Assembly: GCF_018320785.1 (NCBI RefSeq)
Contig: NC_054868.1
Coordinates: 47,561,874 to 47,625,873 of the forward strand
Source of the DNA: Cheilinus undulatus
Lineage: Eukaryota; Chordata; Actinopteri; Labriformes; Labridae
DNA: 64,000 nt
Direction of reading: 5' to 3'
The notes below the pieces were generated by a model. It was not told the DNA's origin. It saw only the letters and a program-made list of their open reading frames with translations, and searched no databases. Made by a program: the position numbers and the translations under genes. Shown here piece after piece: positions 5,501 through 64,000 of the stretch (positions are counted from its first letter, which is position 1; each line of letters starts with the position of its first letter).

Positions 5501-7062
5501 TCTAACTGTAGGATGCTTTGGGACAACTAGGTAATCTATTTTAAATGTTTAGTCTACATGGGAAATTATTGTTCCATTTATTAAATTTAATTTAGGAAAA
5601 TTAATGTTACTAGAAAAAAAGTGAATTATTTTGATACTTGCTTGTTACCAAAGTGACAAAAATAGAGGTCCACGATGACAAATTTGGGGTAATTTGTTGT
5701 TTTTAATGATCAAAAAACGCAGACAAGTTCTTGTACACTGAATTGCCCAAATACATTGGCAACATTCTTGGAAAAGGGGTTAACTGGCAGCTAGACCTAT
5801 TTTTTTTAAGTGCTGCCTAATTATTTATGCAATCCAGACAATGCTCTCTTTCTCTTTTGGTGAAGAAATATAATTGAATATTAACATATTTCGGTACTTT
5901 TTATGCCACCAACAACTGAAATCAAGGAGATTTTATTATTTTTGAAACAGGGTATTTAAGGGTATTGAAGATTTTGACAAAACATCAATATATCGAAATG
6001 TTGCTGATGTTTTTGTGCAATTTAGACAGTACATAGAGATCTGTCTGCAATTTTTAGAGATTAAACTTAAAAATATTTGGTACTTATCTGGGTTTCTATT
6101 CTAATTTTTACTTGAATCATTTTAAAATTCAGACTTCTGGCATTATGACCATTTGTTTTTTTATGTACAGAAATAAGAATGGAATATTTTGTGTATGGCT
6201 ATTAAACTAAAAAAATATTAACACATGATGATTGGTCCTTATACCCAGCCCTGGTTTGTAGTTCGTTTTAAATTGTTAAAATAGCTTTTACATGTTTGTT
6301 GTTGTTTTTATTCAATGAACCAAAAACTTCCTCAGTAACTGCCTTTGTTTAATCATTCTAGTGGAGATTTTTTTCTTCATTTGCTTGTATTTTAAGTTGC
6401 AGTCATTTAAGCTGTATTGTTTTCATCATTCTGAACAACCTAAAGCAAAAAAGATAAAACCTTGCATTCAAGTGCAGCAAAAAAAAAAAAACATTGAAGG
6501 TTTCTTACATGCACACAAATACTCCTAAAGGAGGCCCGACTCTCAAAATAAATATCTTAAAACATAACGATCTTTAGTCTAAAGGCACTTTGGGAATCCT
6601 CAGTGTCACAAAATAAATACCAATTCTACACACAGGCGCCTTTTCAGCCATGTGTCAGTGTACAGTGTACAAACCGTTTCATCAGTCCGCTTTAACACCG
6701 AGAAGGCAGCGTTCGCAAAAACAGGACAGAAGACACAGCATTTATGACGTTCTGATTTAGAAATCCGGGATGTACCAAAACCCACCTTGAAGGTTTTTTC
6801 ACAGCATGTGTGACACAGAGGGTTTCTTTAAGACGAGCATTTAAAAAAAAATCTTCAATCATAACTGCATCACACTATACTGAAAAGTCTTTCAATGAAA
6901 AACAAATCCTTATCAAAATACAGACTTCATATCTGTGTACCGCGTTGTTTGTTACCTTGTGAGGATCAGTTTTACTGGTTCAGTTTCCTCTTCTCTTAAA
7001 TCATTTTATTCCTCTTTCAAAGAATAAATCCAGAGAAATGTTCATTGTTTTCTAGTCTGTCT
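2574..7062. other. Convergent intergenic region with both 3' UTRs
   Basis: No coding exon was found. The PDE4 3' UTR starts at 2574 and the GGA2 3' UTR runs leftward from 7062. AATAAA signals exist on both strands (plus near 2880, minus near 7005-7010) but none can be chosen as the real site. A hAT-like end (tagggatgcaca) is at about 4185, and a 12-base A-run near 6480 could be a retroposon tail. Confidence 0.5.
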
Positions 7063-23223: not shown

Positions 23224-33073
<9,850 letters not shown>

Positions 33074-33269
33074 CTTATCAACTTCAAGGTTCGCCTAGCA
33101 AGCTAACGGTCCAGCTTCAGGGAGGTTAACGACGGTCAATGAAACTACATGTCGATAGGAAACAGGGAGGCAATGAGAATAAACAAAAAAACCTTACATT
33201 TGCCCCTCACATGTGTTTCTTTAGTGGCGTTCGTTCGGGTCAAGCATGATTTGACTCCATGGGGTTTGT

Positions 33270-44778: not shown

Positions 44779-45782
44779 CACTATATGGACAAAAGCATTT
44801 GGTCACACCTGCTAATTATTGAATTGAACTCAGCCATGAAGCAGAAGACCACATAAACTCACAAAGTGAAACAAACACCTGCTTAGGTGCGTTAAAGTCA
44901 CAAACACTCAGCTGATTCCATAGCTGAAAAGTTCTAATCTTCACTGGCATTATTGTAAGAACAGAAACTGCAGCAGGGGCTTCATGAATGGGTTTTCATG
45001 GCCGAGCAGCTGCATGCAAGCCTCACATCACCAAGTCCAATGCCAAGCGTTGGATGGTGTGGTGAAAAGTGCATATACACTGGACTGTGGAGCAGTGGAA
45101 ACCTGTTCTGTGGAGTGACAAATCATGCCTCTCTGTTTGGCAGACAGATGAGTGAGTCAGGTTTGGTGAATGCCTAGATAACATTACCTGTCTGACTGCA
45201 TTGTGCCAACTGTGAAGTTTGGTGTCAGAGGGATAATGATATGGGGCTGTTTTTCAGTGTTTGGTCCAGGCCCCTTATCTCTAATGAAGGCCAATCTTAA
45301 TGCTTCAGCATGCCAAAACATTTTGGACAGTGCTATGCTTCCAACTTTGTGACAACAGTTTGGTGGAAGGCCCTTTTCTATTCCAACATGACTATACCCC
45401 AGTGCACAAAGCAAGGACTATAAAGACATGGTTTGATGAGTTCAATGTGGAAGGACTTGACTGGCCCGCACAGAACCCTGACCCCTGACCTCAACCCTGT
45501 TGAGCACCTTTGGGATGAACTGGAATGGAGATTTCAAAATAGGCCTTCTTGTCCAGCTTAAGTGCCTGACCTCATGAATGCTCTACAGAATGCATGGGCA
45601 CAAATTCCCGCAAAACACTCAAAAATCTTGTGGAAAGCCTTCCAAGAAGAGTGGAAGCTGTTGTAGCTGCAAAGGTGTGAGTGTGGGGGGGCAACCCCAT
45701 ATTAAAGTGCATATATTTGAATGAAATGCCATTACAATCACTGTTGGATATCATGCAGCTGAATACTTTTGTCCATATAATG
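44779..45782 (+). pseudogene. Tc1-like transposon with dead transposase
   Basis: About 1.0 kb bounded by inverted ends (cactatatggacaaaagc; right end gtccatataatg), with TA at the right junction and AA at the left. The interior retains transposase pieces: [15 protein letters not shown], the catalytic-aspartate region FQHDYTPVHKARTIKTWFDE, then LWDELEWRFQNRPSCPA. Several stops and frameshifts disable it. A second copy of the left end lies at 44646-44670, 133 bp upstream. Confidence 0.85.
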
Positions 45783-49960: not shown

Positions 49961-50748
49961 GTAAGATCAGATTTTGTATCTTCTCTCTATTGTTATTGTG
50001 CAGAGATAAAGTCAAGGGACAAATCCGCCCTTACAAAACAATACTTGAAATTCAATATATATATCTAATTCTCATCAAGATTATCAACAAAGGAATGGTG
50101 CCAAGTAGATAAGAAGCCTTTAGCGGCGTATTTCTCTGTACTATAGAGCTCTTACATTGTCTTGAAGCCTAAAAAAAGATGACAAATTACTAAACTCTTG
50201 CACTGGCAGACTTGTTCCTTAACTACAATAGATGCAGTCTTCCAATTAAACCATCCCACACCTATAATTTGGAGGAAAGTGTCCCTATTAAAGCTCTACT
50301 TGCTCCTGCTTGAATAATTTGATAATTATTATCAAATTATAGTTTGAGTTCCAAAAACAGTAAAAATAAAGAGGACTTTTTGAAGGATAAAATATCCTTA
50401 TAATTGCCCACTTTTGCATAAACATGTTGGCATAATACATTTAAAATCTATTTTTAATAAATCATTTGTTTGCATCTGTTTTTTTTTCAGTGGCCCTAAT
50501 CGTCTTCCGTACATATGTAAAAATCCCTTGTACAATTTAATAAGAACTGGTCCCTTGTATCTGAATTCACTCTTCATGTTTTTATTTTGCATTCTTTAAA
50601 CCTGAATCAGGAGTGTTGTGTTTGATCAACAATAAAGCAAAAATAAATGCACAGCTTACTGCCCAACACAACTTCAATGATAAGTGCTTAAAAAAACGGA
50701 CTCACTTTAAACTTGAATGTTCAGTTGCACATCATTTTCTGATTGTTT

Positions 50749-50780
50749 TTTATTTATTTATTTATTTATTTATTTATTTT
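50749..50780 (+). repeat. (TTTA)n microsatellite
   Basis: About eight TTTA units, followed by caagacaatacagac, suggesting the reversed A-rich tail of a retroposon. Confidence 0.85.
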
Positions 50781-50920
50781 CAAGACAATACAGACAAAGA
50801 CCAAGACATGTAACAGGACAGGACAGGATAGTAAACAAGCAGGCTAGCTTTGAGGTTTTTACAGATTTTAGGAGAGATGAAAAACAAAACAAAAATGGAT
50901 GGACTGTGTATATGAGGATA

Positions 50921-50940
50921 TGTGTGTGTGTGTGTGTGTG
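50921..50940 (+). repeat. (TG)n microsatellite
   Basis: Ten TG dinucleotides continuing into gggtgagtgagtg. Confidence 0.85.
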
Positions 50941-51769
50941 GGTGAGTGAGTGTGTACATGTGCATGCATGCAGATTTTCTTAGTGAGAAGGATATCAAAT
51001 TTATTAGAGTGGTTATTGATGGTCAGGTAAGAGGATGAAGAAATAAACGGAGATTAGGAAAAGAGAAATTGCTGCTATGATGGCTTTCAAGCTAATGGAG
51101 ATCCTTAGTCACCAGGTCAGGGTTAGCTGCACTCCTCCAGTGACATTTTCCAATTGTTAAATGGACATAAAGGGGTAAACATTGAATATTTACGTTTTGT
51201 CCACTTGCACCTCAAGTCTCTACTTTGCTTCTGATGAGTACTAAATTATTCGACTTAAATTTCTTAACAAAGATCAACTTCTAAACAACAAAATAAAACT
51301 CAGCATCTAACCAGAGGACGAAAAATCTTCAATATGCTGCATGAAATGCAAGCAACATTTACACAGCGTGCTTATTTAGCAGCAGAATAAAGCAGAATAA
51401 AAAGTTGTAAGTACTCCTGTTTGTAGCAACTTTCTATTTTCCTTTTTATCATCTAAACTTGCACATTGCACATGCTGGATAGTCCTGTTTACTCACTCTA
51501 CTTTTTATGTTTCTTTCATTTTTTCAGAACCTTTAAACTTTTCTCTATTCTGGATAAAGGCCAAAAAAACATTTTAATGCAAATTCAGGAGGCAACTACT
51601 TGTAATCTTTTAGGAAAAATGTCACCTAACATTGTTGTTTTATCCTCTCAAACCAAGACTTCACAAATCTTTATTACCAAACGTATAACATGTTATATCT
51701 GCGTGCCTTGTTAAGGTCAGTAGCCTATCCCCTTCAACAACCTCATTTGATTGATGGGTGATATGAAAA

Positions 51770-51860
51770 AGTTTGGCCAATCGCAGACGTCATGTTCCAT
51801 GGGGGGAGGGGTTACATTTTATAACCTTCGTGTCACCGTCACTCGGGCCCCGCAAAGGTG
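51770..51860 (+). promoter_or_regulatory. Promoter-like cluster: CCAAT, CRE-like and TATA
   Basis: ccaat (51777-51781), gacgtcat (51786-51793) and a TATA-like tttataa (51818-51824) are spaced as in a core promoter. About 20-30 bases further is GC-rich sequence and a possible donor, gcaaag followed by gtgagc, at 51857/51858. This could be an alternative first exon for the plus-strand gene or a separate non-coding RNA. Inferred from motifs only. Confidence 0.4.
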
Positions 51861-53137
51861 AGCGCAAGTCGGCGCCAGGTGAATTAATATATCCAAAACT
51901 GCATGATGCATTTTTTCAAGGATTTGCAACTGCTTTCGACAGCAAACAACAGAAAACAGTGAGTAAACATCATTTCATTCTTCAAACACGCTGCGTACAA
52001 CAGAAAACACGGACTTAAAGGCTGCAGACATACGGCGCCTGTACTAATTAGCTAACAAGCTAGCTAACTAAAGAAATATGTAAATTCGATTTAGCAGGCT
52101 CGGTAGCCGTTCATTGGCTATCTGGCGACTTAGTTCCCCTTCTCCATAATCTTAAACACGGAACTGTATTCTTTGTAACCGAGGATAAAACTGCTTTAGA
52201 ATAAATATTAAAGTCTGCAGGTGGCGACTCCGCTTCAGAGGCCTCACAACCACGGCCTTATGTGAGGCCTATGTCCAAGGGCAACCATGTTCGACCATTT
52301 CAAACAGTTAAGTATATCAGACTTTTAAACGTGTAACGTAGAAACAGACGCAGAAGATGCAAAGTGGCATTCAAATGCCGTTTATTTGTGAGAGTATATA
52401 GAGACCTATAGTCAGCATCTTTTCAGGCGCCACTTTGGATACCTTTCAATACATTTGAAATCTATATGAGCTTAGAAAACCTCAGAACCGCTCATTTCCT
52501 ATCCAAAACTATTCGTTAATGCCCAACAGCGGCAAACCTCTGCAAGTAATTACAGTATTATAACTCATGAGATTATTTTTTTAGTTTAAATTAAAAAAAA
52601 GTAATTGATTAACAAAGTGCATTCTGACTACATGGTTTACCTTCAACTATTACTTTTGAATATGTACGCAAATAAGTCCCTTTTTGCCTGGCATGCCAGG
52701 CTGCACGACAAGTATGCAGACATCATATGCTGCAGCTGCAGTTCGCCATGTTTTCCACTAGAGGCTGTTGGAGGCTGAGACAGCTCTTCGTCATGAAGTT
52801 TCACCATTGAAAGACATTTTCTCCGCTCAATGAGAATGTAAAAGTGTGTGTAGTGGAAAGATTATTTTGGCTTTTGATATTTTTTTTCGCAAAACATTTC
52901 TTATGACTACTTCTCCAAGCTTTTCTGATCGAAAATGTTAAAACACTGACATTCTTAAATCTTATTGGCTGCTGATGCGTCACATGACCAGGAAGCGCCG
53001 TGTTACCGTAAACCCATCAACTAAAAAGCTGTCTAAACATCGCTTGTGAAAATGTTATCCCATTTCGCGCATCATATTTGTGCATAGGACTTTATTTTAT
53101 TATCATTGGGTGATTTTTGCTGTTTGTAAATCTGACG

Positions 53138-53156
53138 TAACCGTCAGTGTGAAAGA
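53138..53156 (+). promoter_or_regulatory. U2 proximal sequence element (candidate)
   Basis: taaccgtcagtgtgaaaga sits 43-61 bp upstream of the U2 start. It resembles the vertebrate snRNA PSE, which in U2 genes is centred near -55 and is bound by SNAPc. Confidence 0.6.
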
Positions 53157-53198
53157 CAGTGGGGGGAATGTCGTCCTCTGCTCCGACAGAATTGTGTT

Positions 53199-53385
53199 AT
53201 CGCTTCTCGGCCTTTTGGCTAAGATCAAGTGTAGTATCTGTTCTTATCAGTTTAATATCTGATACGTCCCCTACCCGGGGACCATATATTAAATTGATTT
53301 TTGGAATAGGGAGATGGAATAGGGGCTTGCTCCGTCCACTCCACGCATCGACCTGGTATTGCAGTACCTCCAGGAGCGGTGCACC
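53199..53385 (+). ncRNA. rnu2: U2 small nuclear RNA
   Basis: The branch-point-pairing RNA of the major spliceosome. About 187 nt, near-identical to vertebrate U2: 5' end atcgcttctcggcctttt, branch-recognition segment gtgtagtatc, Sm site gatttttgg, and 3' hairpin through tgcagtacctccagg. All functional parts look intact. A PSE-like site lies upstream and a 3'-box-like gtttaatgtaatt follows. The exact 3' end is uncertain by a few bases. Confidence 0.96.
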
Positions 53386-54143
53386 CCCCTCTCCTTGTTT
53401 AATGTAATTCTTATTGAAGTCCAAAGGTACAGAGTTGTCGTACTAATGTTCACAGTGATGTTCTGTGAGTGTAGAAGATCAATGTCGAGTCTTGTTTTAG
53501 AAAAGTTCATGTTATTTATGTTATTCTCTTTTATGTCTTTAGCAAGTTTGTAGTGGAATATACCCTACATTCCTACATGAGGTTTTTCTATTATATACTC
53601 TTTTAACAGGGTTACTTTATTTTTTTCAACCGTGGAAATCTGGCTTCTCAATATTTACAAACTCATTTTATCTCATACAGAGAAATACTGAAAAATGTAT
53701 TAGTTACACTTTTAATACTGCACTTTTGTCACAGCAATCTTGTTGTACAAAGTAAAACACACACATATCTATTATGTGTAAAAATACAAATACACATTAA
53801 AAAAATCCTCCATCCCTAACAATAATCCATGAACAAAGTCAGAACTGACGACCTGAGGACATTCAGGTAAAAGAAAACTAATGTATTTATACTGTATGTA
53901 AATAAGATGAAATTTTTTATTTCAACAGTAAGGGCCTTTATGTTATTTTCAGATACGATTTTTCTGATCCCTCGTTAAAAAGGCACACTTGAGCCTTGCA
54001 CAGTGCACTCTGTTTTATTTGTATCAACTGCAAAAACGTGTAGAATTGTTTTGTATTGTGACATAAAAAAGCAGTGTGGATCTGTTACATAGCAGTATGT
54101 CAGCCCTGTTCTATGAAGTTGCCAGTGTAGTTTACACTTATGG

Positions 54144-54157
54144 CCAGCAGGTGGCAG
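54144..54157 (+). promoter_or_regulatory. CTCF-like motif, U1 cassette 1
   Basis: CCAGCAGGTGGCAG, a strong match to the CTCF core, 472 bp upstream of U1 copy 1. The same 14-mer is in the other two cassettes. Confidence 0.6.
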
Positions 54158-54412
54158 TAGCTGGAATGTAAGATGCTCACTAGCAGGGAACAAAGAAACA
54201 GGAAGTGGCTGCAGTTTGAGAGGGAAAGAGGAGATCTGCTCGTTTTTTTACTCTTTTTATGTGGATTTCAAGGCTGATTTAAATGCTTTTGATGACAGTT
54301 TTATAAAGGCTTTGATTGTTAAGACTTACTGATCAGCTGTCAGTCTTTTGCTTTGCAGAATTACACAAAACTTGTGAGATTTAGGGAGCTTTTGACATGG
54401 TAATTCAGAGAT

Positions 54413-54432
54413 GCATGATGGGAACTGTAGTA
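54413..54432 (+). promoter_or_regulatory. ZNF143/SPH-type DSE, U1 copy 1
   Basis: gcatgatgggaactgtagta is the inverse of the ZNF143 (Staf) SPH motif ACTACANTTCCCATCATGC. It starts 203 bp before U1, the normal place for an snRNA distal sequence element. Confidence 0.75.
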
Positions 54433-54615
54433 CCTTTTTTTAGATGTCATAAGTTGTGTTTTTGTCTGTTTTGGTCCAGAATGGTTGCTTTTCTTTGATA
54501 CGAGGGTGTATTTTTCATGAATACCTCCCTGATGTCAGTGTTTGCATATGTGAAGTCCTCTCAGTCTGATTGGTATCTGTGTGAATGAGGTTCCAGTGTG
54601 TGAGCTGAGCAAGTC

Positions 54616-54779
54616 ATACTTACCTGGCAGGGGAGATACCATGATCAAGAAGGTGGTTCACCCAGGGCGAGGCTCAGCCATTGCACTCCGGTTGTGCTGA
54701 CCCCTGCGAATTCCCCAAATGTGGGAATCTCGACTGCATAATTTCTGGTAGTGGGGGACTGCGTTCGCGCTCTCCCCTG
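54616..54779 (+). ncRNA. rnu1: U1 small nuclear RNA, copy 1
   Basis: The 5' splice-site-recognising spliceosomal RNA. 164 nt with the 5' end atacttacctg that pairs with donors, stem-loop II sequence (ccattgcactccgg), Sm site ataatttctgg and 3' hairpin ending ctctcccctg. Stem-loop I reads gatcaagaagg where human has gatcacgaagg. A 3'-box-like gttgaaaaacaaa follows 10 bases later. Confidence 0.97.
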
Positions 54780-55006
54780 ATTTAAATGTTGAAAAACAAA
54801 CACAAAACTACAAATTAAGCATTAATATTTTCATGGTTGAGCAGAAGGCTTCTGTCTTCTTGAAGTCTGTAAGATTCAGAAGTTACGTGAACCCTATCAT
54901 CACCATATCTATTCTGCTGGCCTTAGAAATATTTTTATATTCATCAGGTTATTCTGGTTTGTCCATGTCCTCAAGTATTATATTCACAATTCCCACACAT
55001 ATGGGA

Positions 55007-55048
55007 CATCGACCTGGTATTGCAGTACCTCCAGGAATGGGGCACCCC
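55007..55048 (+). pseudogene. U2 snRNA 3'-end fragment
   Basis: About 42 bases matching the U2 3' hairpin (catcgacctggtattgcag, cctccaggaat) with no U2 5' part. The downstream 350-400 bp also match the flank of the intact U2 gene, so this is a segmental copy truncated at its left, not a retrocopy. Confidence 0.85.
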
Positions 55049-56078
55049 CCTCTACTTGCTGAATGTAATTTTTACAAAACTGAGTTTTACAACAGTGCTC
55101 ACACAAACACTTTCCCACATGTGGAGGATGAATGTTGAGACTTTGTTTACGAAAGTCACTAAGATTCATGTTTTATGTTATTCTCTTTTATTTCTTTATC
55201 AAATCTGTGAAAAGTGAACCCTGTAGTGGTCATTTCCGTGTATGTCATGCAAAATATACTGGATTTCTACATTAGGTTTCCATTTTATACAGTATTTAAG
55301 CTGGTTTACTGTAATTTTTTCAACCGTGTAAATCTGACTTGTCAATATTTACAACTTCATTTATCTGATACAGTTAGATGCTGAAAGATTTATCAGTTAA
55401 ACTTTTAATATGGCAGTTTTGTCACATTTTCATTGTTCAAAATGAAAGTACACATATCTGTTATGTGCACATACAAATACACAGTAAAAAAAAAAAAACC
55501 TCCATGCTTATCCATGAACAGAGTCAGATCTGACAACCTGAGGACATTCAGTATAAGAAAACTATCACCCAGCCCGACTTAAAAGTGCGTTTTAAGGACT
55601 GAAAACTGTTAACTTGTTCATCCTCAAACCTTTTATTGTGTTTGAAGGACTGAAAATGTAATAAGAAAAGAAATACTTAGCCTAAATAGATTAAAATGAA
55701 AAAACCAATCCTGTCTTTAACCCAATAATCCATACACATAGTCAGAACTGATGACCTGAGGATATTCAGAAAAAGCAGAACACATCAATCTGTACTGAGT
55801 ATTTCTTTTCAAGAGTCAAACTAAGATTTATCTCCCCTCATTAGAGCTACAGACAGCACTCAATCATCCTACTGACACCGTGGTCTCTGTAGGATACTTA
55901 ATACTAAGACAAAATGTTTCAAAACTGTTTTACATCACAGAGACAGTATGTTAACTGTGATCACCACCACTGCTTTCCAGGTGTTTAAATGGTTGAAAGA
56001 TTTTGCCAGTTTCTTAAAGTAATAAAGCTTTATATCAGCCCTGTTTTATGAAGTTGCCAGTGTAGTTTACACTTATGG

Positions 56079-56092
56079 CCAGCAGGTGGCAG
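56079..56092 (+). promoter_or_regulatory. CTCF-like motif, U1 cassette 2
   Basis: Same 14-mer as in cassette 1, at the same distance (472 bp) from U1 copy 2. Confidence 0.6.
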
Positions 56093-56347
56093 TAGCTGGA
56101 ATGTAAGATGCTCACTAGCAGGGAACAAAGAAACAGGAAGTGGCTGCAGTTTGAGAGGGAAAGAGGAGATCTGATCGTTTTTTTATTCTTTTTATGTGGA
56201 TTTTAAGGCTGATTAAAATGCTTTTGATGACAGTTTTATAACGAGTTTGATTGTTAAGACTTACTGATCAGCTGTCAGTCTTTTGCTTTGCAGAATTACA
56301 CAAAACTTGTGAGATTTAGGGAGCTTTTGACATGGTAATTCAGAGAT

Positions 56348-56367
56348 GCATGATGGGAACTGTAGTA
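56348..56367 (+). promoter_or_regulatory. ZNF143/SPH-type DSE, U1 copy 2
   Basis: Same 20 bases as in cassette 1, starting 203 bp upstream of U1. Confidence 0.75.
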
Positions 56368-56550
56368 CCTTTTTTTAGATGTCATAAGTTGTATTTTTGT
56401 CTGTTTTGGTCCAGAATGGTTGCTTTTCTTTGATACGAGGGTGTATTTTTCATGAATACCTCCCTGATGTCAGTGTTTGCATATGTGAAGTCCTCTCAGT
56501 CTGATTGGTATCTGTGTGAATGAGGTTCCAGTGTGTGAGCTGAGCAAGTC

Positions 56551-56714
56551 ATACTTACCTGGCAGGGGAGATACCATGATCAAGAAGGTGGTTCACCCAG
56601 GGCGAGGCTCAGCCATTGCACTCCGGTTGTGCTGACCCCTGCGAATTCCCCAAATGTGGGAATCTCGACTGCATAATTTCTGGTAGTGGGGGACTGCGTT
56701 CGCGCTCTCCCCTG
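56551..56714 (+). ncRNA. rnu1: U1 small nuclear RNA, copy 2
   Basis: Reads the same as copy 1 over all 164 nt. The upstream cassette from about 56036 is nearly identical to that from 54106. The 3'-box-like sequence is gttgaaaaataaaa. Confidence 0.97.
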
Positions 56715-58087
56715 ATTTGAATGTTGAAAAATAAAACTGAACTGACATACTAAGTTCTGGTACTGTTATTGGTGAGCAGTTGAGGCTAAAAAGTTAAATT
56801 GATGTTAATTGTCAGCATATTTATTTATCTGGCCTTTGATATATTCATATATTCATCAGGTTATTTTGGTTTGTCCATGTTCTCAGTTGTTTACAAATCC
56901 CACACAATCTCAGTCTCAAATGTGTTTATTTGTAGGTATTTAATTCTCATTACTGCATGATAAATCTTTCTCTACAAGGACAGTACTGCTCATTTGCATT
57001 TTTTTTAAATCATCATCAAATGCTTCTTTTAGCTATATGAAGGTGATTCATCACTACATCGCTCTTTTAATCACCATTGTTGGGTGGCAGCTAAATTTCG
57101 CATAAACCAAAAAAAGGCTTTGCTAGCTGACCCCTGTAATAACCAAGATATGTGCTGAGAATAGTTAATTTTCAATGAACACATTTAAAATGGATGTAAA
57201 CATTTCCAAAATTCACAGCATAATTTTATGTAAGAAAATTATACACAGCATTCCACATTATTATGCAAATTGGATTTTAGTGTTGTAAATATTCAATTGT
57301 TTGTTTTTCAGTTAAACTCATGGATGGTATTGTCTCTCAGGGCTCTGTGGATCACTGAAATCAATCTCAGACACCTGTGATAATTAGTTTGCCAGGTGAG
57401 CCCAATTAAAGGTAAACTACTGAAGAAGGACGTTCCACATTATTAAGCAGGACACAGGTTTCAGCAATATGGGAAAGAAAAAGGATCTCTGCTGAAAAGT
57501 GTCAAATAGTACAGTGCCTTGGACAAGGTATGAAAACATTAGATATTTCAGGAAAACTTAGGCGTGATCATCGTACTGTGAAGACATTTGTGGCCGATTC
57601 AGAGCACAGACGGTTTGTGCAGATAAAGGCATAATGAGGAAGGTTTCTGACAGAAAAATACATCAGATTAAGAGAGCAGATGCTAAAATGCCATTAAAAA
57701 GCAGCAAACAGGTGTTTGAAGCTGCTGGTACCTCTGGAGTCCCACGAACCACAAGGTGTAGGATCCTCCAGAGGCTCGCAGTCGTGTGTAAACCTACTGT
57801 TCAGCCCCCCCAACCAGTGCTCACAAGCAGAAACGGTTGCAGTGGGCCCAGAAATACATGAAGACTCATTGTCAAACAGTCTTGTTTACTAAGGAGTGCC
57901 GTACAACCCTGGGTGGTCCAGATGAATGGAGTGGATGGATGGACCGAGCTACCTGTTTGAGGGCGCATCTAGAGCTGATGGCGCAGTGTTTTGAGCCCTC
58001 CTCGATCTCTCTACACTTTCTGGTTTTAATGATTTTACCTCCGTTATTCACGACACACTTGTCCCCACACACCTGTGAGGGACCGTG

Positions 58088-58108
58088 CTTATAGATAGAT
58101 AGATAGAT
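58088..58108 (+). repeat. (ATAG)n microsatellite
   Basis: About four GATA/ATAG units between the unidentified frames. Confidence 0.75.
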
Positions 58109-58343
58109 ATATTAACACACAGATTTATTGAATTTAATGTCATTTGAATGAACAATTAACTGATCAGGGAACTAAAAGAAAATATTAGAATTACTTGAAC
58201 TTTTTAAAAACTAAAATTTTTGAAACTAAATTATTTAACCTTTTCTGTAATCAATAAAAAGAAAACACAAGAACTAATTAACTAATTTCAAATAATAACA
58301 ACAAACAATGATTGATAATGAACCTCCTACCCCCTTTTACTCC

Positions 58344-58573
58344 CTATGCACTCCCCCCCCCCTCATCTGGGCCCGCTGGGACTGTTGCCTGCATTACTGT
58401 GTCTCCGTCAATTTTTACATCTAAGAAAAATGGTAGGGCAACCATTTTTTTGAACACATCTTCCCAAATTGCTTTTTGGATTGTCAGCATGTCGCCATTT
58501 TCCGTGAGCAGGGACAAGTGACCTGGCTTGCCCTCCTCCACAGCACCCAGGACACTCAGTCTTTTTTCTGTCA
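58344..58573 (-). other. Unidentified open frame with a splice acceptor
   Basis: Reading leftward from a possible acceptor (tcatttcag), the frame stays open for about 75 codons: ENLTEKRLSVLGAVEEGKPG, IQKAIWEDVFKKMVALPFFL and VKIDGDTVMQATVPAGPDEG. The composition looks like real protein, not random sequence. I do not recognise the family. It could be a transposon gene or captured host exon. Confidence 0.4.
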
Positions 58574-58769
58574 GATTTTCCTGAAATGAGGAAAAATGTG
58601 AATTTAATAATTACTATATTAAAAGCATACTGCTACACCATTGAAAACCATGATTGTTCAGAACCCCCCTCTGATTGCTGTCTGTCTGTCTATATTCAAT
58701 TTTCCAAATAATTTCTTCTTTTTTTCACATTTTTCAAAAAGTTAGCTTCTGCATTCTTCTGCTGTGATG

Positions 58770-58855
58770 TTATTTTCAGCTATTTAAATGCTATTTATTA
58801 GCAATTTTTTCCATTACTGTCAGCTATTTTTATGCTTATCCAGCTACTGTTGTGA
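58770..58855 (-). repeat. Reversed GCTGAAAATAGC minisatellite
   Basis: ttttcagctatttaaatgct and cagctatttttatgctta are the reverse of the tandem unit at 44036-44330; three to four degenerate copies. Confidence 0.6.
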
Positions 58856-59162
58856 TATTTAGAAATAGGTGAGAAGAACAGGAGGGAGCTGGTACAGACA
58901 TGAACCCACTGTGGCTGATTCTGACCGGTTTCCCACCGGTTTGAAAGTTTCCAGCGTTGTATACGGGGGATTTTCCTGCATTACAAGTGTCAGACTTGTC
59001 GTGAGAATTTAATAAATGGTGCACAATTGCTACAATCTCGTGCCAAAATTCAGCGCTCGTGTCACTATTGCAGACGTAAAACATGCGGGACATCGTTTCA
59101 TACACAGCTTTAGAGGATAAATCAGTTGCTTTGGAGAAGTCTCTCTCATGATACTGAGTCAA
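58836..59162 (-). other. Unidentified open frame
   Basis: 108 codons, containing HERDFSKATDLSSKAVYETM and MFYVCNSDTSAEFWHEIVAI. The mixed, balanced composition suggests former coding sequence. It lies upstream of, and on the same strand as, the frame at 58344-58573, so the two may be exons of one gene. No family recognised. Confidence 0.4.
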
Positions 59163-59329
59163 AGCATACCCTCACACACGTGACCACAGCTCTGACACAG
59201 AGAGGAGGGTGCGGGGCTCTCAGCTCAGTGAGCAGTTTGCTCAGCTCTGCTCATGTAGTCAGAGGGAATGAGCAGAAAACCAGGACTTAGAGATTAAATA
59301 CATTAATTTAAACAGGATAAATAACTTTG

Positions 59330-59520
59330 GGCTATTTAGTTTGTTTAATGAAAGGACCATGGAAAACCTGCTCTATAGGAAAGTTATCCATAAATGGCTT
59401 CTGTTGTGATCTGGCGCAATATAGAAAAAAACAATTAAATAAAATGGACTCAACATTCAAGGGGGGTGGGGGGTGCTGTTGGCAGGGGGCCCTCCCAATA
59501 GTATGGTAGGGGAAACACTG
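59330..59520 (-). mobile_element. hAT-like terminus
   Basis: Read on the minus strand it starts CAGTGTTTCCCCTACC, a widespread fish hAT terminal sequence. Then come GC-rich bases and a segment (ttgaatgttgagtccatttt) that I associate with the same family. The partner end was not found with confidence; a partial match (cagtgttttgagccc) is at 57981. Confidence 0.6.
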
Positions 59521-60900
59521 TCTAGAATTTATTTGTATATCAGAGGGGGAAAAGCTCAAACTTTTGTTATTAGTAGGTGCAGATAAAGGTGTATTTCTGG
59601 ATCTGCACCTGGTCCTTCCTGATCTCGCCTGTCAGAGTGAGAAGCTGTACACATATTGGACTTTAGTATGCACAAAAATCTCAATATTGTTCTTGTGTCA
59701 TAAATATTTAAGTCATACACTGAATGCTGACATCACTGTAACAGACTAATGGACAGCTGGAGCAGAGGCAGGGAAAAAACATTTCTCCTTTGCCTCCCGG
59801 TGGGGTGAAAATTTATCATGGAGGGGTTATCAGTAGCAGAGGGGAAATCCTCCCAGCAAATCAGACCCCACAAAGTGCTTTTACATCAGCGTGGCGGGGT
59901 TGGAAGCAGGGCTGGCCTGCTTCAGCCCTACTCATGAACAGGCCATTTCAGCGTGGATAGGCACGGCCAAACTGTTGATGAAAATGCAAATGAGCACAGC
60001 CTGGTTTGGCTCGGCACAGCCAAAAGCCATAGTGGAAAAGCCCAACATGTCCCAACAAGGCTGTGACATCAGCAAGGAGGAGGCGGAGTCAGGTTTTGGG
60101 CCTGAATCATGGGGAGAGAGCTGGTCGACCCCTTAAGGGTCCCTGAATTTGTGAAAATGACCTACAGCATACAGAGTTTCTGACTAACTACTTCCTCCCA
60201 TGGTAGAAAAAGAAGAACCATGCCTTCCAAAGCAAAATTATCTTCATGCGTGACAATGCATCATCTCATGCTGCAAAGAATCCCTCTGTGTCATTGGCTG
60301 CTATGGGCATAAAAGGAGAGAAACTCATGGTGTGGCCCCCATCCTCCCCTGACCTCAACCCTATTGAGAACCTTTGGAGCATCCTCAAGCTAAAGGTCTA
60401 TGAGGGTGGGAGGCAGTTCACATCAAAACTGCAGCTCTGGGAGGATATTCTGACATCTCAGAAAGAAATTCAAGCAGAAGCTCTCGAAAAACTCATAAGT
60501 TCAATGGATGTAAGAATTGTGAAGGTGATATCAAAGGAAGGGGTCCTGTGTCAACATGTAACTTGGCCTGTTAAAATGTTTTTGATTGAAATAGCTTTTG
60601 ATTTCAGTAAATATGACCTCCTAATGCTGCAAATTCAACAAATTACCATTTTCAGTTCTTTACAACCTGTAAAATGTTTTGAAACTATGTTGTGCATAAT
60701 AATTTGGAACACAGCATTTTGAGTTTTTTTTTATTTTTGAAAAATAAAAAAGTTATCATTGGGAGGTTTGCTCAATAAAATCTGAATTATGCTCTAACAG
60801 TTGATGACTTGAAAATTATATTGACTGTCATTTGCATTGACTATTTAGGAAAACCAGAGAAAAATATCATTTGCGTAATAATTTGGATCGCGGTGTATAC

Positions 60901-61596
60901 TTCAAAAAATATTTTTTAGAATTTATAGCCTTTGAAAATGACACTTCAATTCCCTTTTCACATGCATCTGCCTGCAACGTCAAGAAACAAAAACAGCTGT
61001 TTTGAGATTTGCTGAACTGATGTGTAGGAAACATCATCAGACAACTGTTGGCAGTGATGTTCTAAAAAGATGTCTTTGCATTGCAAATCTTTGGTCTGAA
61101 TTGGGCTTTAGATGCAGGATAGTAATAGGTAGTGTCTATGGAAAGGAGCCCGAACAAAAGGCTTATTCTGAGGTAATTTAAAGAAAACAATTTCATACAT
61201 TCAGGTCAGTAAACAATAATTTGAACGTACTTCTAAGAGTTGTTTTCCATTTTTACCAAGTTTGAGCTGCCAAATTTTACTTAATATTACCGATTAACCT
61301 TTATAGCAGTAATAGGTTGTCATGTGCCCTAAACATTACAAAATAATAAAGATGTGGAATAAAAACGCATGAAGGGTAAAATAGTAAAGGGCTAAATTAT
61401 CTCTCATTCTGGAAAATATTTAAAGAATAGATATTCGTTGGAAAGATGCAGTTTTATCACAAACAGCCATCGAGTGGCTTGATGTAAAGTCACTTTACTG
61501 TGACTTTCAGGATACAAATGTCCAACTCTGTCCAGATTTAGTTTGATATTCTGTTGTCAGCTTGAACAATTTTTCTTCTTTTTTCTTTTTTTACAG
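60901..61596. other. Non-coding DNA between Tc1-like element and microexon
   Basis: AT-rich; no RNA gene, exon or named element seen. It would be intronic if the three-exon gene is real. Confidence 0.4.
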
Positions 61597-61618
61597 CAGA
61601 AACATCACTTGCAAAAAG
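61597..61618 (+). CDS. Candidate 22-nt microexon of the same gene
   Basis: Preceded by a very strong pyrimidine tract ending ttacag and followed by gtaaga. In phase from the signal-peptide exon it reads AETSLAK plus two bases. A tandem CAGCAG acceptor would allow loss of one codon. The 11.6-kb intron before it contains two of the three U1 genes and the U2 gene. Confidence 0.42.
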
Positions 61619-62039
61619 GTAAGATCAAGAAGTTTTAATAATCTAGTTGAAAAGCTCTTGTTGTTTTCCATTATTGATGACTTCTACATGTTCTTATTCT
61701 AATGTACTAATCAGTTACTTTGATTATCTACATGAAAAATATGAATCTTAAAAATCCCCTTAAGATTTCTGTGGATATTTTAGCCAAAAATGCTGCCAGA
61801 GAGAAAAGGAAGTTTGTTTATGCATCAAAATATTGCCCGTTTAAATAATGTGCATTGAGTTTGCCAGCATCTTTTTTTTACTAAAACAAGAAAACTACTC
61901 AATGTTAGGTGTTTTTGACCTTCTTCTTCCATGGCATCGATAACATTTCATTTTGACCTGCATTGTATAAAAATATCTGGTATGGCAACACCATAATGCA
62001 GTGCTTCCTCTGACTCTTGATTTGTTGTTTTACTCATAG

Positions 62040-62085
62040 ACTTTGCAGAAAGAAAACCTGCTCTTCAGAACAAACATGTGGTCAG
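62040..62085 (+). CDS. Candidate cysteine-rich exon of the same gene
   Basis: 46 nt between acceptor tactcatag and donor gtgagt. In phase it reads R-LCRKKTCSSEQTCGQ, ending in phase 0. A second acceptor 9 bases in (tttgcag) would drop three codons without shifting frame. The three exons together give 40 codons with no stop. The next exon must lie further right, and none was found in the window. Confidence 0.42.
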
Positions 62086-62267
62086 GTGAGTGAATCTGTC
62101 TGATACTGTACAAACATGGGTGTTTCAAAAACGTGGCGTCCAAGTCCTCTGTCTACTAAGCAAAAGAATCTTTAAAGTTTAGCCATCAGTGTACTCAAGT
62201 GCAGCTTTAAGGCCAAAATACAGTAAGAGGCTAGATGTAACGTTTTTTTAATATCGTGCACAGAGAA

Positions 62268-62420
62268 AAAGGATGAAAGGACAACACAAAACTGGTCTTA
62301 TTTGTGATTCCCATTAAGATTCTGATAATAATCAAATTTTTCTGCAGCTACAGATGCATACACGAGATTACTGATTTGAGTTTTTACAAATGTTTTGATC
62401 GAGGGGTCTCCTCTGTTCTA
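62268..62420 (+). repeat. Direct repeat left of U1 cassette 3
   Basis: aaaggatgaaaggacaacac through gattactgatttga, repeated with about 85-90% similarity by eye at 63768-63935. Confidence 0.78.
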
Positions 62421-62827
62421 AGATTATTGGTGTGAAACAGAAAGACTATTTCCTTTTGTAACTTTTGCAGTAAGGTTGAGTTTCTCTCCTTCTCTTCCTC
62501 TGTTCTTTGGCATTATTAATTCCCTTGGAAATTAGATGCCTAAATACTCCTTGTGTGTTTTTTATTTTACAGGCTATCAGAAAGTCCTACTTAAAATCAT
62601 GTAGTTTTGTTTTTGTATTTTTATCTTAGACATATTGTTGCTATCTGTGTCACTTTGTTTTAAACAGGCTCCATACTAATTTGCCCGCATCATAGGAATA
62701 ACCACATCAGTAGCCGATGAGAGAAATAACTAGTCATCAGAATTAGCTGGGGGCCAATATAGAAGGGACTGCAAGTCGCATTTGTCCCCAGGCCATAGTT
62801 TGGACACCCCTGCCCTGACACTTATGG

Positions 62828-62841
62828 CCAGCAGGTGGCAG
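62828..62841 (+). promoter_or_regulatory. CTCF-like motif, U1 cassette 3
   Basis: Same 14-mer and the same 472-bp distance to U1 as in the other cassettes. Confidence 0.6.
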
Positions 62842-63096
62842 TAGCTGAAATGTAAGATGCTCACTAGCAGGGAACAAAGAAACAGGAAGTGGCTGCAGTT
62901 TGAGAGGGAAAGAGGAGATCTGCTCGTTTTTTTACTCTTTTTATGTGGATTTTAAGGCTGATTAAAATGCTTTTGATGACAGTTTTATAACGAGTTTGAT
63001 TGTTAAGACTTACTGGTCTGCTGTCAGTCTTTTGCTTTGCTGAATTACACAAAACTTGTGAGATTTAGGGAGCTTTTGACATGGTAATTCAGAGAT

Positions 63097-63116
63097 GCAT
63101 GATGGGAATTGTAGTT
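63097..63116 (+). promoter_or_regulatory. ZNF143/SPH-type DSE, U1 copy 3
   Basis: gcatgatgggaattgtagtt: two changes from copies 1 and 2, one of which (aattgtagt) moves it closer to the usual Staf consensus. It starts 203 bp upstream. Confidence 0.75.
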
Positions 63117-63299
63117 CCTTTTTTTAGATGTCATAAGTTGTATTTTTGTCTGTTTTGGTCCAGAATGGTTGCTTTTCTTTGATACGAGGGTGTATTTTTC
63201 ATGAGTACCTCCCTGATGTCAGTGTTTGCATATGTGAAGTCCTCTCAGTCTGATTGGTATCTGTGTGAATGAGGTTCCAGTGTGTGAGCTGAGCAAGTC

Positions 63300-63463
63300 A
63301 TACTTACCTGGCAGGGGAGATACCATGATCAAGAAGGTGGTTCACCCAGGGCGAGGCTCAGCCATTGCACTCCGGTTGTGCTGACCCCTGCGAATTCCCC
63401 AAATGTGGGAATCTCGACTGCATAATTTCTGGTAGTGGGGGACTGCGTTCGCGCTCTCCCCTG
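63300..63463 (+). ncRNA. rnu1: U1 small nuclear RNA, copy 3
   Basis: Same 164-nt sequence as copies 1 and 2, 6.7 kb downstream of copy 2 and beyond a nested transposon. The 3'-box-like sequence is gttgaaagagaaa. Confidence 0.97.
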
Positions 63464-63767
63464 ATTTGAATGTTGAAAGAGAAACCTGACGCTACATGCC
63501 AAGGCCTGGTACTGCTATTGTTGGCACATGTCTTCTCTGTCTGTGAAGGAATAGATGTTAGCACAGTTGCTTTTATCAATTTTGGTCCAATTTGCCAGCA
63601 GTGGAGATACTTAAAAGTTAATGTCATATCTATTGTCACCTCGTTTATTCATCCGGCCTAGAAGTATTTGTATGTTCATCAGGTTATTTTGCTTTGTTCA
63701 TGTTTTCAGTTGTTCACCATTCCCACACAATCCCAATCTCAGATGTGCTTTATTTTCATGAAATTAA

Positions 63768-63935
63768 AAAAGGATGAAAGGACAACACAAAACTGGTCTA
63801 ATTGTGAGTTCATTAGATTTCTGATAATCATCAAATTTTTCTGGAGCTACAGATTCATACACGACATTACTGATTTGATCTTTTCTTCAGAGGAAGTTAC
63901 TCTGTTTTTACAAATGCTTTGATTTAGGGGTGTCC
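63768..63935 (+). repeat. Direct repeat right of U1 cassette 3
   Basis: Second copy of the 62268-62420 sequence, with an extra about 25-base piece (cttttcttcagaggaag). It brackets the third U1 gene at a period of about 1.5 kb. Confidence 0.78.
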
Positions 63936-64000
63936 CCAGCAAAGGATTCAGATTGATCAGATTTGGCCTGCAGTGGACCGATTGATGGTTGTGTCTTTGA

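Follow-up and report, generated by a model that had tools for sequence, protein, structure and literature searches.

U2 and U1 genes at the locus

The window analysed here is a 64-kb stretch of the Cheilinus undulatus genome (C4:47561874-47625873; C4, C2, C22 and C10 are contig labels in a 1.17-Gb assembly of 46 contigs) and carries a cluster of U2 and U1 small nuclear RNA (snRNA) genes. Only four matches in it reach the Rfam gathering level, one to U2 and three to U1 (U1a, U1b and U1c), all full-length and on the plus strand, with scores (Table 1) that compare with gathering scores of 46 for RF00004 and 69.5 for RF00003. An additional piece of U2, equivalent to U2 nucleotides 148-191 (E 8e-14), begins on the same strand a few bases past the end of the recognisable U1a 3' flank and has no Rfam match even at E ≤ 1. 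The inventory given by the first-pass annotation, one intact U2, one U2 3'-end fragment and three U1 genes on one strand, was therefore recovered in full, and intact U1 and U2 genes are interspersed on one chromosome stretch, as expected of a linked fish U1-U2 cluster. Alignment of the window U1s to RF00003 showed ACUUACCUG, AUUGCACUCC and AAUUUCUGG, which we take to be the 5' end that pairs with the 5' splice site, the U1A loop and the Sm-type site, respectively. A permissive Rfam scan of positions 50000-64000 added to the four genes only two sub-gathering matches, taken as chance, and ARAGORN found no tRNA in the window. No U5 was found at the Rfam gathering score in the window or in the stretches fetched from C4, C2, C22 and C10, a scan that covered 12 of the 13 fetched stretches, the thirteenth (L026) being window sequence except for its last 126 bases.

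Self-comparison of the 53-64 kb region revealed sequence shared outside the mature RNAs, in agreement with the flank matches that had been claimed. The U2 gene and the U2 fragment are continued by direct repeats (53346-53880 and 55007-55564; 70% identity, E 2e-74), and the U1 cassettes match one another at 91-98%. A construction from U2-U1 units, however, describes units 1 and 2 but not units 3 and 4. No trace of U2 was detected before U1c (self-comparison at E ≤ 0.01; Rfam at E ≤ 1) or, by blastn at E ≤ 0.001, before U1d, a fourth U1 gene found at C4:47626931, just beyond the window end, where a look for further units had been recommended. Units 3 and 4 share their spacer at 88-89%.

A paralogous cluster with six U1 genes (C2_1 to C2_6) lies at 48.340-48.362 Mb of C2. 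It matches the window from 50572 to 56734 in pieces whose order is kept (U2 5' flank, U2 3' spacer, U1) and includes three copies of the U2 promoter, the sequence after each being unreadable. At least 24 matches were obtained in a genome search with U1, at least 19 of them above the cut-off (repeat counts are lower bounds); among the matches listed, ten score 169.4-169.8 bits, namely the three window genes, U1d and the six on C2. Comparison of 1625 open reading frames (ORFs) of at least 30 amino acids from the window plus 20 kb with 50 kb of C2 (E ≤ 1e-4) returned only cluster DNA and the block upstream of it, Tc1-like fragments and one unexplained 17-residue match; the C2 cluster may be an ohnologue or a segmental copy of the C4 cluster.

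Promoters and spacers were duplicated together with the genes, and the C2 cluster matches in order, which upholds the earlier view that the copies arose by tandem duplication rather than by retroposition. That a single gene was placed several times during assembly is extremely improbable. Identical RNA genes can mislead assemblers, but each copy has flanks of its own, with a 3' flank identity of 64-71%, and a Tc1-like element occupies one gap only.

Each U1 gene would constitute a self-contained transcription unit, comprising a ZNF143/Staf-type site at about -200, an element resembling the proximal sequence element (PSE) at about -50, the 164-nt RNA and a little sequence on its 3' side; the factor names used here (ETS, PSE, ZNF143/Staf and CTCF) are our assignments from consensus or role. 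All ten canonical 5' modules carry, without variation, the blocks AAAGAAACAGGAAGT and TGCATGATGGGAA as well as three parts of the PSE-like element. The ZNF143/Staf-type site is exact in nine of the ten and has one mismatch in C2_3, and those of U1a, U1b and U1c are the only such sites with three or fewer mismatches in the 64 kb. Besides its occurrence before the window U2, the U2 PSE-like pattern is present without mismatch in each of the three C2 U2-promoter copies. Twelve exact octamers occur in the window, none of them inside a U1 5' module.

Homogenisation of the U1 upstream module

The three window U1 RNAs are identical over 164 of 164 nucleotides, as had been stated, and eight of the ten canonical U1 RNAs are identical, C2_5 and C2_6 each being one base off. 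U1a and C2_4 have the same RNA although their 5' modules share only 322 of 468 positions; the C2_1 module shares 317/463, 316/463 and 315/462 with those of C2_4, C2_5 and C2_6. Because the RNA is unchanged between copies whose modules share only 68-69%, and is the same, more broadly, in copies with modules about 20-32% different, we infer that purifying selection probably keeps the U1 RNA nearly invariant.

Over positions -482 to -1 the three window pairs are identical at 474, 469 and 473 of 482 positions without insertions or deletions. Identity falls about 15-20 bases beyond the 3' end of the RNA and, upstream, at about -520 (U1a with U1b) or -483 (U1c); the U1 3' flanks agree at 64-71% among U1a-c over 168 columns. 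The drift that had been ascribed to the U1 flanks thus applies to the spacers and to the 3' side, beginning some 15-20 bases after the RNA, but not to the upstream -482 to -1, which is 97-98% identical. A genome search with the 482-bp module gave at least ten matches, and all ten that were listed end one base before a canonical U1.

The key comparison is between the module and the spacer, inside the cluster and against C2. For the U2 3' spacer (277 columns), units 1 and 2 share 220 positions (79.4%), unit 1 and C2 share 209 (75.5%), and unit 2 and C2 share 196 (70.8%). For the U1 5' module (476 columns), units 1 and 2 share 469 positions (98.5%), and each shares 384 (80.7%) with C2_1. Module and spacer therefore differ greatly within the C4 cluster (Fisher test, 1.4e-19) and little against C2 (0.097), which argues that the module is not unusually constrained. 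The order of identity reverses between module and spacer, which shows that copies of the 480-bp 5' module were homogenised inside the cluster, apparently by copying from gene to gene.

If selection alone were at work, the whole 5' module would be a constrained promoter that stays alike without exchange. The invariant blocks in all ten modules, together with a ZNF143/Staf-type site that never has more than one mismatch, fit such constraint. A promoter that was merely constrained would, however, be conserved in both comparisons, whereas the U1 module is alike only within the cluster: between C4 and C2_1 it is little more conserved than the spacer, and the low identities of the C2_1 module to those of C2_4, C2_5 and C2_6 indicate that it tolerates change. 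Selection acting by itself is therefore very unlikely. Alternatively, whole units might have been duplicated recently by unequal crossing-over, with spacers that simply evolve fast. Whole-unit duplication does occur on C2, where three stretches of 1.3-3 kb have 98-99% identity, and the similar spacers of C4 units 3 and 4 would also be expected. In units 1 and 2, by contrast, the spacer is almost as far diverged (79.4%) as it is from C2 (71-76%) while the module stands at 98.5%, so that the spacer would need a rate of change over ten times that of the module, which makes this an unlikely account. Growth by unequal exchange, as first proposed, is an incomplete account: whole units were duplicated on C2, but the homogenised tracts are hundreds of bases long.

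Local short-tract gene conversion appears to be the simplest reading of the module: the copies are more alike than their surroundings, in tracts flanked on both sides by unconverted sequence, when the C4 module is set against the spacer, the 3' flank and C2, and when C2_3 is considered (see below). Patterns within the module speak less clearly. Clustering of variable sites by type in the C4 tract is weak (runs test, P 0.038 over 16 sites and 0.16 with neighbours collapsed), and the longest identical stretches give P 0.011-0.080 if the RNA gene is counted and 0.29-0.83 if it is left out. Conversion is argued here from the comparison with the spacers and C2, not from these internal patterns. The first-pass annotation had named selection and gene conversion as alternative influences on the RNA; the two divide the observations between them, selection holding the RNA and exchange having homogenised the RNA together with the upstream module within the cluster.

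Candidate determinants of the module's left edge were also considered. A CTCF-core-like motif stands at the left end of the three C4 modules and of C2_1, and is one base off in C2_2 and C2_3; no match with one mismatch or fewer was found before U1d or C2_4-6. CTCF as a boundary element was not adopted, given these missing sites and the coincidence of the U1c left edge with a transposon-like end. The latter is the stretch 62700-62812, which ends in GGACACCCCTG directly before the U1c module and resembles the end of a hAT element; it may account for the sharp left edge there.

Proposed exchange tracts on C2 and their possible direction

C2_3 appears to carry a second clear homogenised tract, which starts near -200 and stops inside the gene. 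It matches C2_1 at 211 of 218 positions over -219 to -1, at 172/244 further upstream and at 37/60 after the RNA, whereas its agreement with C2_4 is 149/217 over -219 to -1 and complete (60/60) in the 3' flank. Judged by the markers, the switch falls within the U1 gene or at its borders, between -18 and +166. In the distal tree C2_3 groups with C2_4-6 (support 98/97), a C2_1-3 clade being rejected at 0.025, and in the proximal tree it groups with C2_1/2 (support 83/84).

The promoters of U2 on C2 gave a weaker case. The first and second copies agree at 90/100 in the last 100 bp, at 100/190 over -300 to -100 and at 136/277 in the 3' flank; the last 100 bp of the C4 U2 promoter match the first C2 copy at 81/100 and the second at 80/100. 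This locus had been a candidate for a clear third tract and was demoted, since a conserved core promoter could explain much of the similarity. Two clear tracts and one possible tract are thus recognised, and each of them has a common upstream side but no common 3' flank.

Several of these data count against exchange on C2 as described. The distal part of C2_3 lies about equally far from C2_4 (176/248), C2_1 (172/244), C2_2 (181/247) and C4_1 (185/249), and the proximal tree does not reject C2_3 being held with C2_4-6 (0.131). For U2, 90/100 and 81/100 do not differ significantly in the last 100 bp (Fisher test, 0.107), and the RNA gene there is unreadable.

Taken together, the best explanation of the locus is probably a functional-looking linked U2-U1 cluster, most of it inside the window, in which the RNA is under selection and the module is homogenised by exchange. 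The cluster would have started as tandem U2-spacer-U1 units, a layout recognisable in units 1 and 2 and matched in order on C2, and the second U2 would have been shortened to its 3' end. Units 3 and 4 have no detectable U2. Purifying selection would keep the U1 RNA nearly invariant while short-tract gene conversion homogenised the 480-bp 5' module within the cluster. As the homogenised tract would extend upstream and stop in or just past the RNA, on C4 and in one C2 gene, spacers and 3' flanks would keep diverging. Selection on the RNA and short exchanges on the upstream module, two forces commonly treated as one under the name of concerted evolution, are told apart in this reading.

More generally, snRNA gene homogenisation could be polar, with exchange that begins in the open promoter, runs into the RNA and omits the 3' side and the spacers, so that a single module of promoter plus RNA would be copied. 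This idea is put forward tentatively and is more probably wrong than right, its odds having been reduced by the weakness of the third tract. According to PMC5519329, promoter-like features attract recombination where PRDM9 does not direct it, and polarity may be tied to PRDM9 loss. If polarity is true, snRNA promoters would be self-homogenising, and if the upstream bias recurs in other genomes, snRNA clusters would lend themselves to a simple natural test of the points at which non-allelic gene conversion begins and ends. Literature searches, with subscription papers mostly outside their reach, returned no title dealing with an upstream bias of exchange at snRNA genes, and absence from print is not claimed.

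Related snRNA clusters and other features of the window

The contrast with the separate tandem arrays of mammals, which the first-pass annotation had recommended, is a fair one. Human RNU2 consists of U2 genes alone, in a tandem array whose units are nearly uniform, for which Liao et al. in 1997 reportedly described rapid intrachromosomal homogenisation and rare interchromosomal gene conversion, whereas in the Cheilinus cluster the genes are mixed, the spacers have diverged and the homogenised stretches are hundreds of bases long. Linked U1-U2 genes in fish, however, are already published, and the cluster is a further example of a linkage reported in several of them. In European hake (Merluccius merluccius), PMC4696792 describes linked U1-U2 genes, including a 1211-bp amplicon that runs from U2 to U1 across a spacer holding a degenerate U2, and U1 and U2 clusters that map to the same place, much as here. 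The hake genes differ in having a U2-U2 amplicon with a complete U5 and a tRNA-Asp pseudogene, in contrast to the U5-free scan above, and an incomplete U6 in the U2-U1 spacer; the hake text consulted showed neither a sequence of the entire cluster nor an analysis of tracts. As cited in PMC3464664, U2 and U5 are linked in several fish and U1, U2 and U5 in Soleidae; snRNA genes are thus mixed in one cluster, as in Cheilinus, and gene content differs. Solea was reportedly treated by Manchado et al. in 2006. Concerted evolution of U2 is commonly assumed and has been the subject of few studies, according to PMC3544641.

A divergent U1 type was found on C22 and C10. Its best copy scores 145 bits and differs from the window U1 at 16 model positions, and all five changed pairs still pair. 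On C22 it is embedded, along with incomplete U2s, in repeats that reach 99% identity, and a search of 45 kb there, 5,275 bases of which are unreadable, detected none of five canonical promoter patterns. The type could be compared with the maternal U1 of zebrafish (PMC11075544).

Table 1. Features of the snRNA cluster (window positions unless a stretch label is given) and copies of the divergent U1 type.
Feature	Position	Strand	Remarks
U2 PSE-like element	53139..53161	+	0 mismatches to 23-base pattern (one N) drawn from the same sequences
U2 snRNA gene, full length	53199..53389	+	RF00004, model 1-192, 194.4 bits
U2 3' spacer, unit 1	53390..53880	+	homologous to 55051-55564, partly to C2 cluster
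5' module of U1a	54134..54615	+	97-98% among three window copies
CTCF-core-like motif	54144..54157	+	exact match to consensus; also before U1b, U1c
Invariant block AAAGAAACAGGAAGT, ETS-like	54192..54206	+	identical in 10/10 canonical U1 5' modules
ZNF143/Staf-type site of U1a	54413..54431	-	0 mismatches to consensus
U1 PSE-like element	54563..54588	+	0 mismatches in 10/10 canonical U1s, pattern from the same sequences
U1a snRNA gene	54616..54779	+	RF00003, 169.4 bits
U1a 3' flank, drifted	54780..54999	+	52-86% to U1b, U1c in bins +164 to +380; 64-70% over 168 columns
U2 3'-end fragment, joined to U1a 3' flank	55007..55050	+	93% identity
U2 3' spacer, unit 2	55051..55564	+	compared with unit 1 spacer
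5' module of U1b	56069..56550	+	98% to U1a module
ZNF143/Staf-type sites of U1b, U1c	56348-56366, 63097-63115		≤3 mismatches
U1b snRNA gene	56551..56714	+	RF00003, 169.4 bits
Tc1/mariner-like insertion	57237..60902	.	42-bp inverted ends, 79%, E 0.003; Pfam DDE_3
Spacer common to next unit	62266..62683	+	88-89%, two main pieces; next unit from 63767 onward, beyond window end
5' module of U1c	62818..63299	+	97% to U1a module
U1c snRNA gene	63300..63463	+	RF00003, 169.4 bits
U1c 3' flank, drifted	63464..63755	+	flank comparison with U1a, U1b
Divergent U1 type	L034:4733-4899, L035:1520-1686, L036:5436-5587 and 6608-6789		C22:3.39-3.42 Mb
Divergent U1 type	L037:4264-4430		C10

The gap between U1b and U1c is widened by an insertion whose class we take to be Tc1/mariner; its ORF at 60207-60722 matches Pfam DDE_3 with 45.1 bits. 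Positions 45182-45513 probably hold a second Tc1-like transposase fragment, of which 45482-45513 is 94% like 60346-60377, and the ORFs there match C2 stretches adjoining those matched by ORF 60207-60722. On the minus strand at 27262-33094, ORFs resemble exons of mitochondrial glutamyl-tRNA synthetase, presumably EARS2, and one of these exons, searched in the genome, gave one match, at its own place. At 1764-2573, on the plus strand, lies what we take to be a PDE4-like last exon with a long glutamate-rich tail, its Pfam PDEase_I score of 19.4 bits falling below the cut-off of 24.8 bits.

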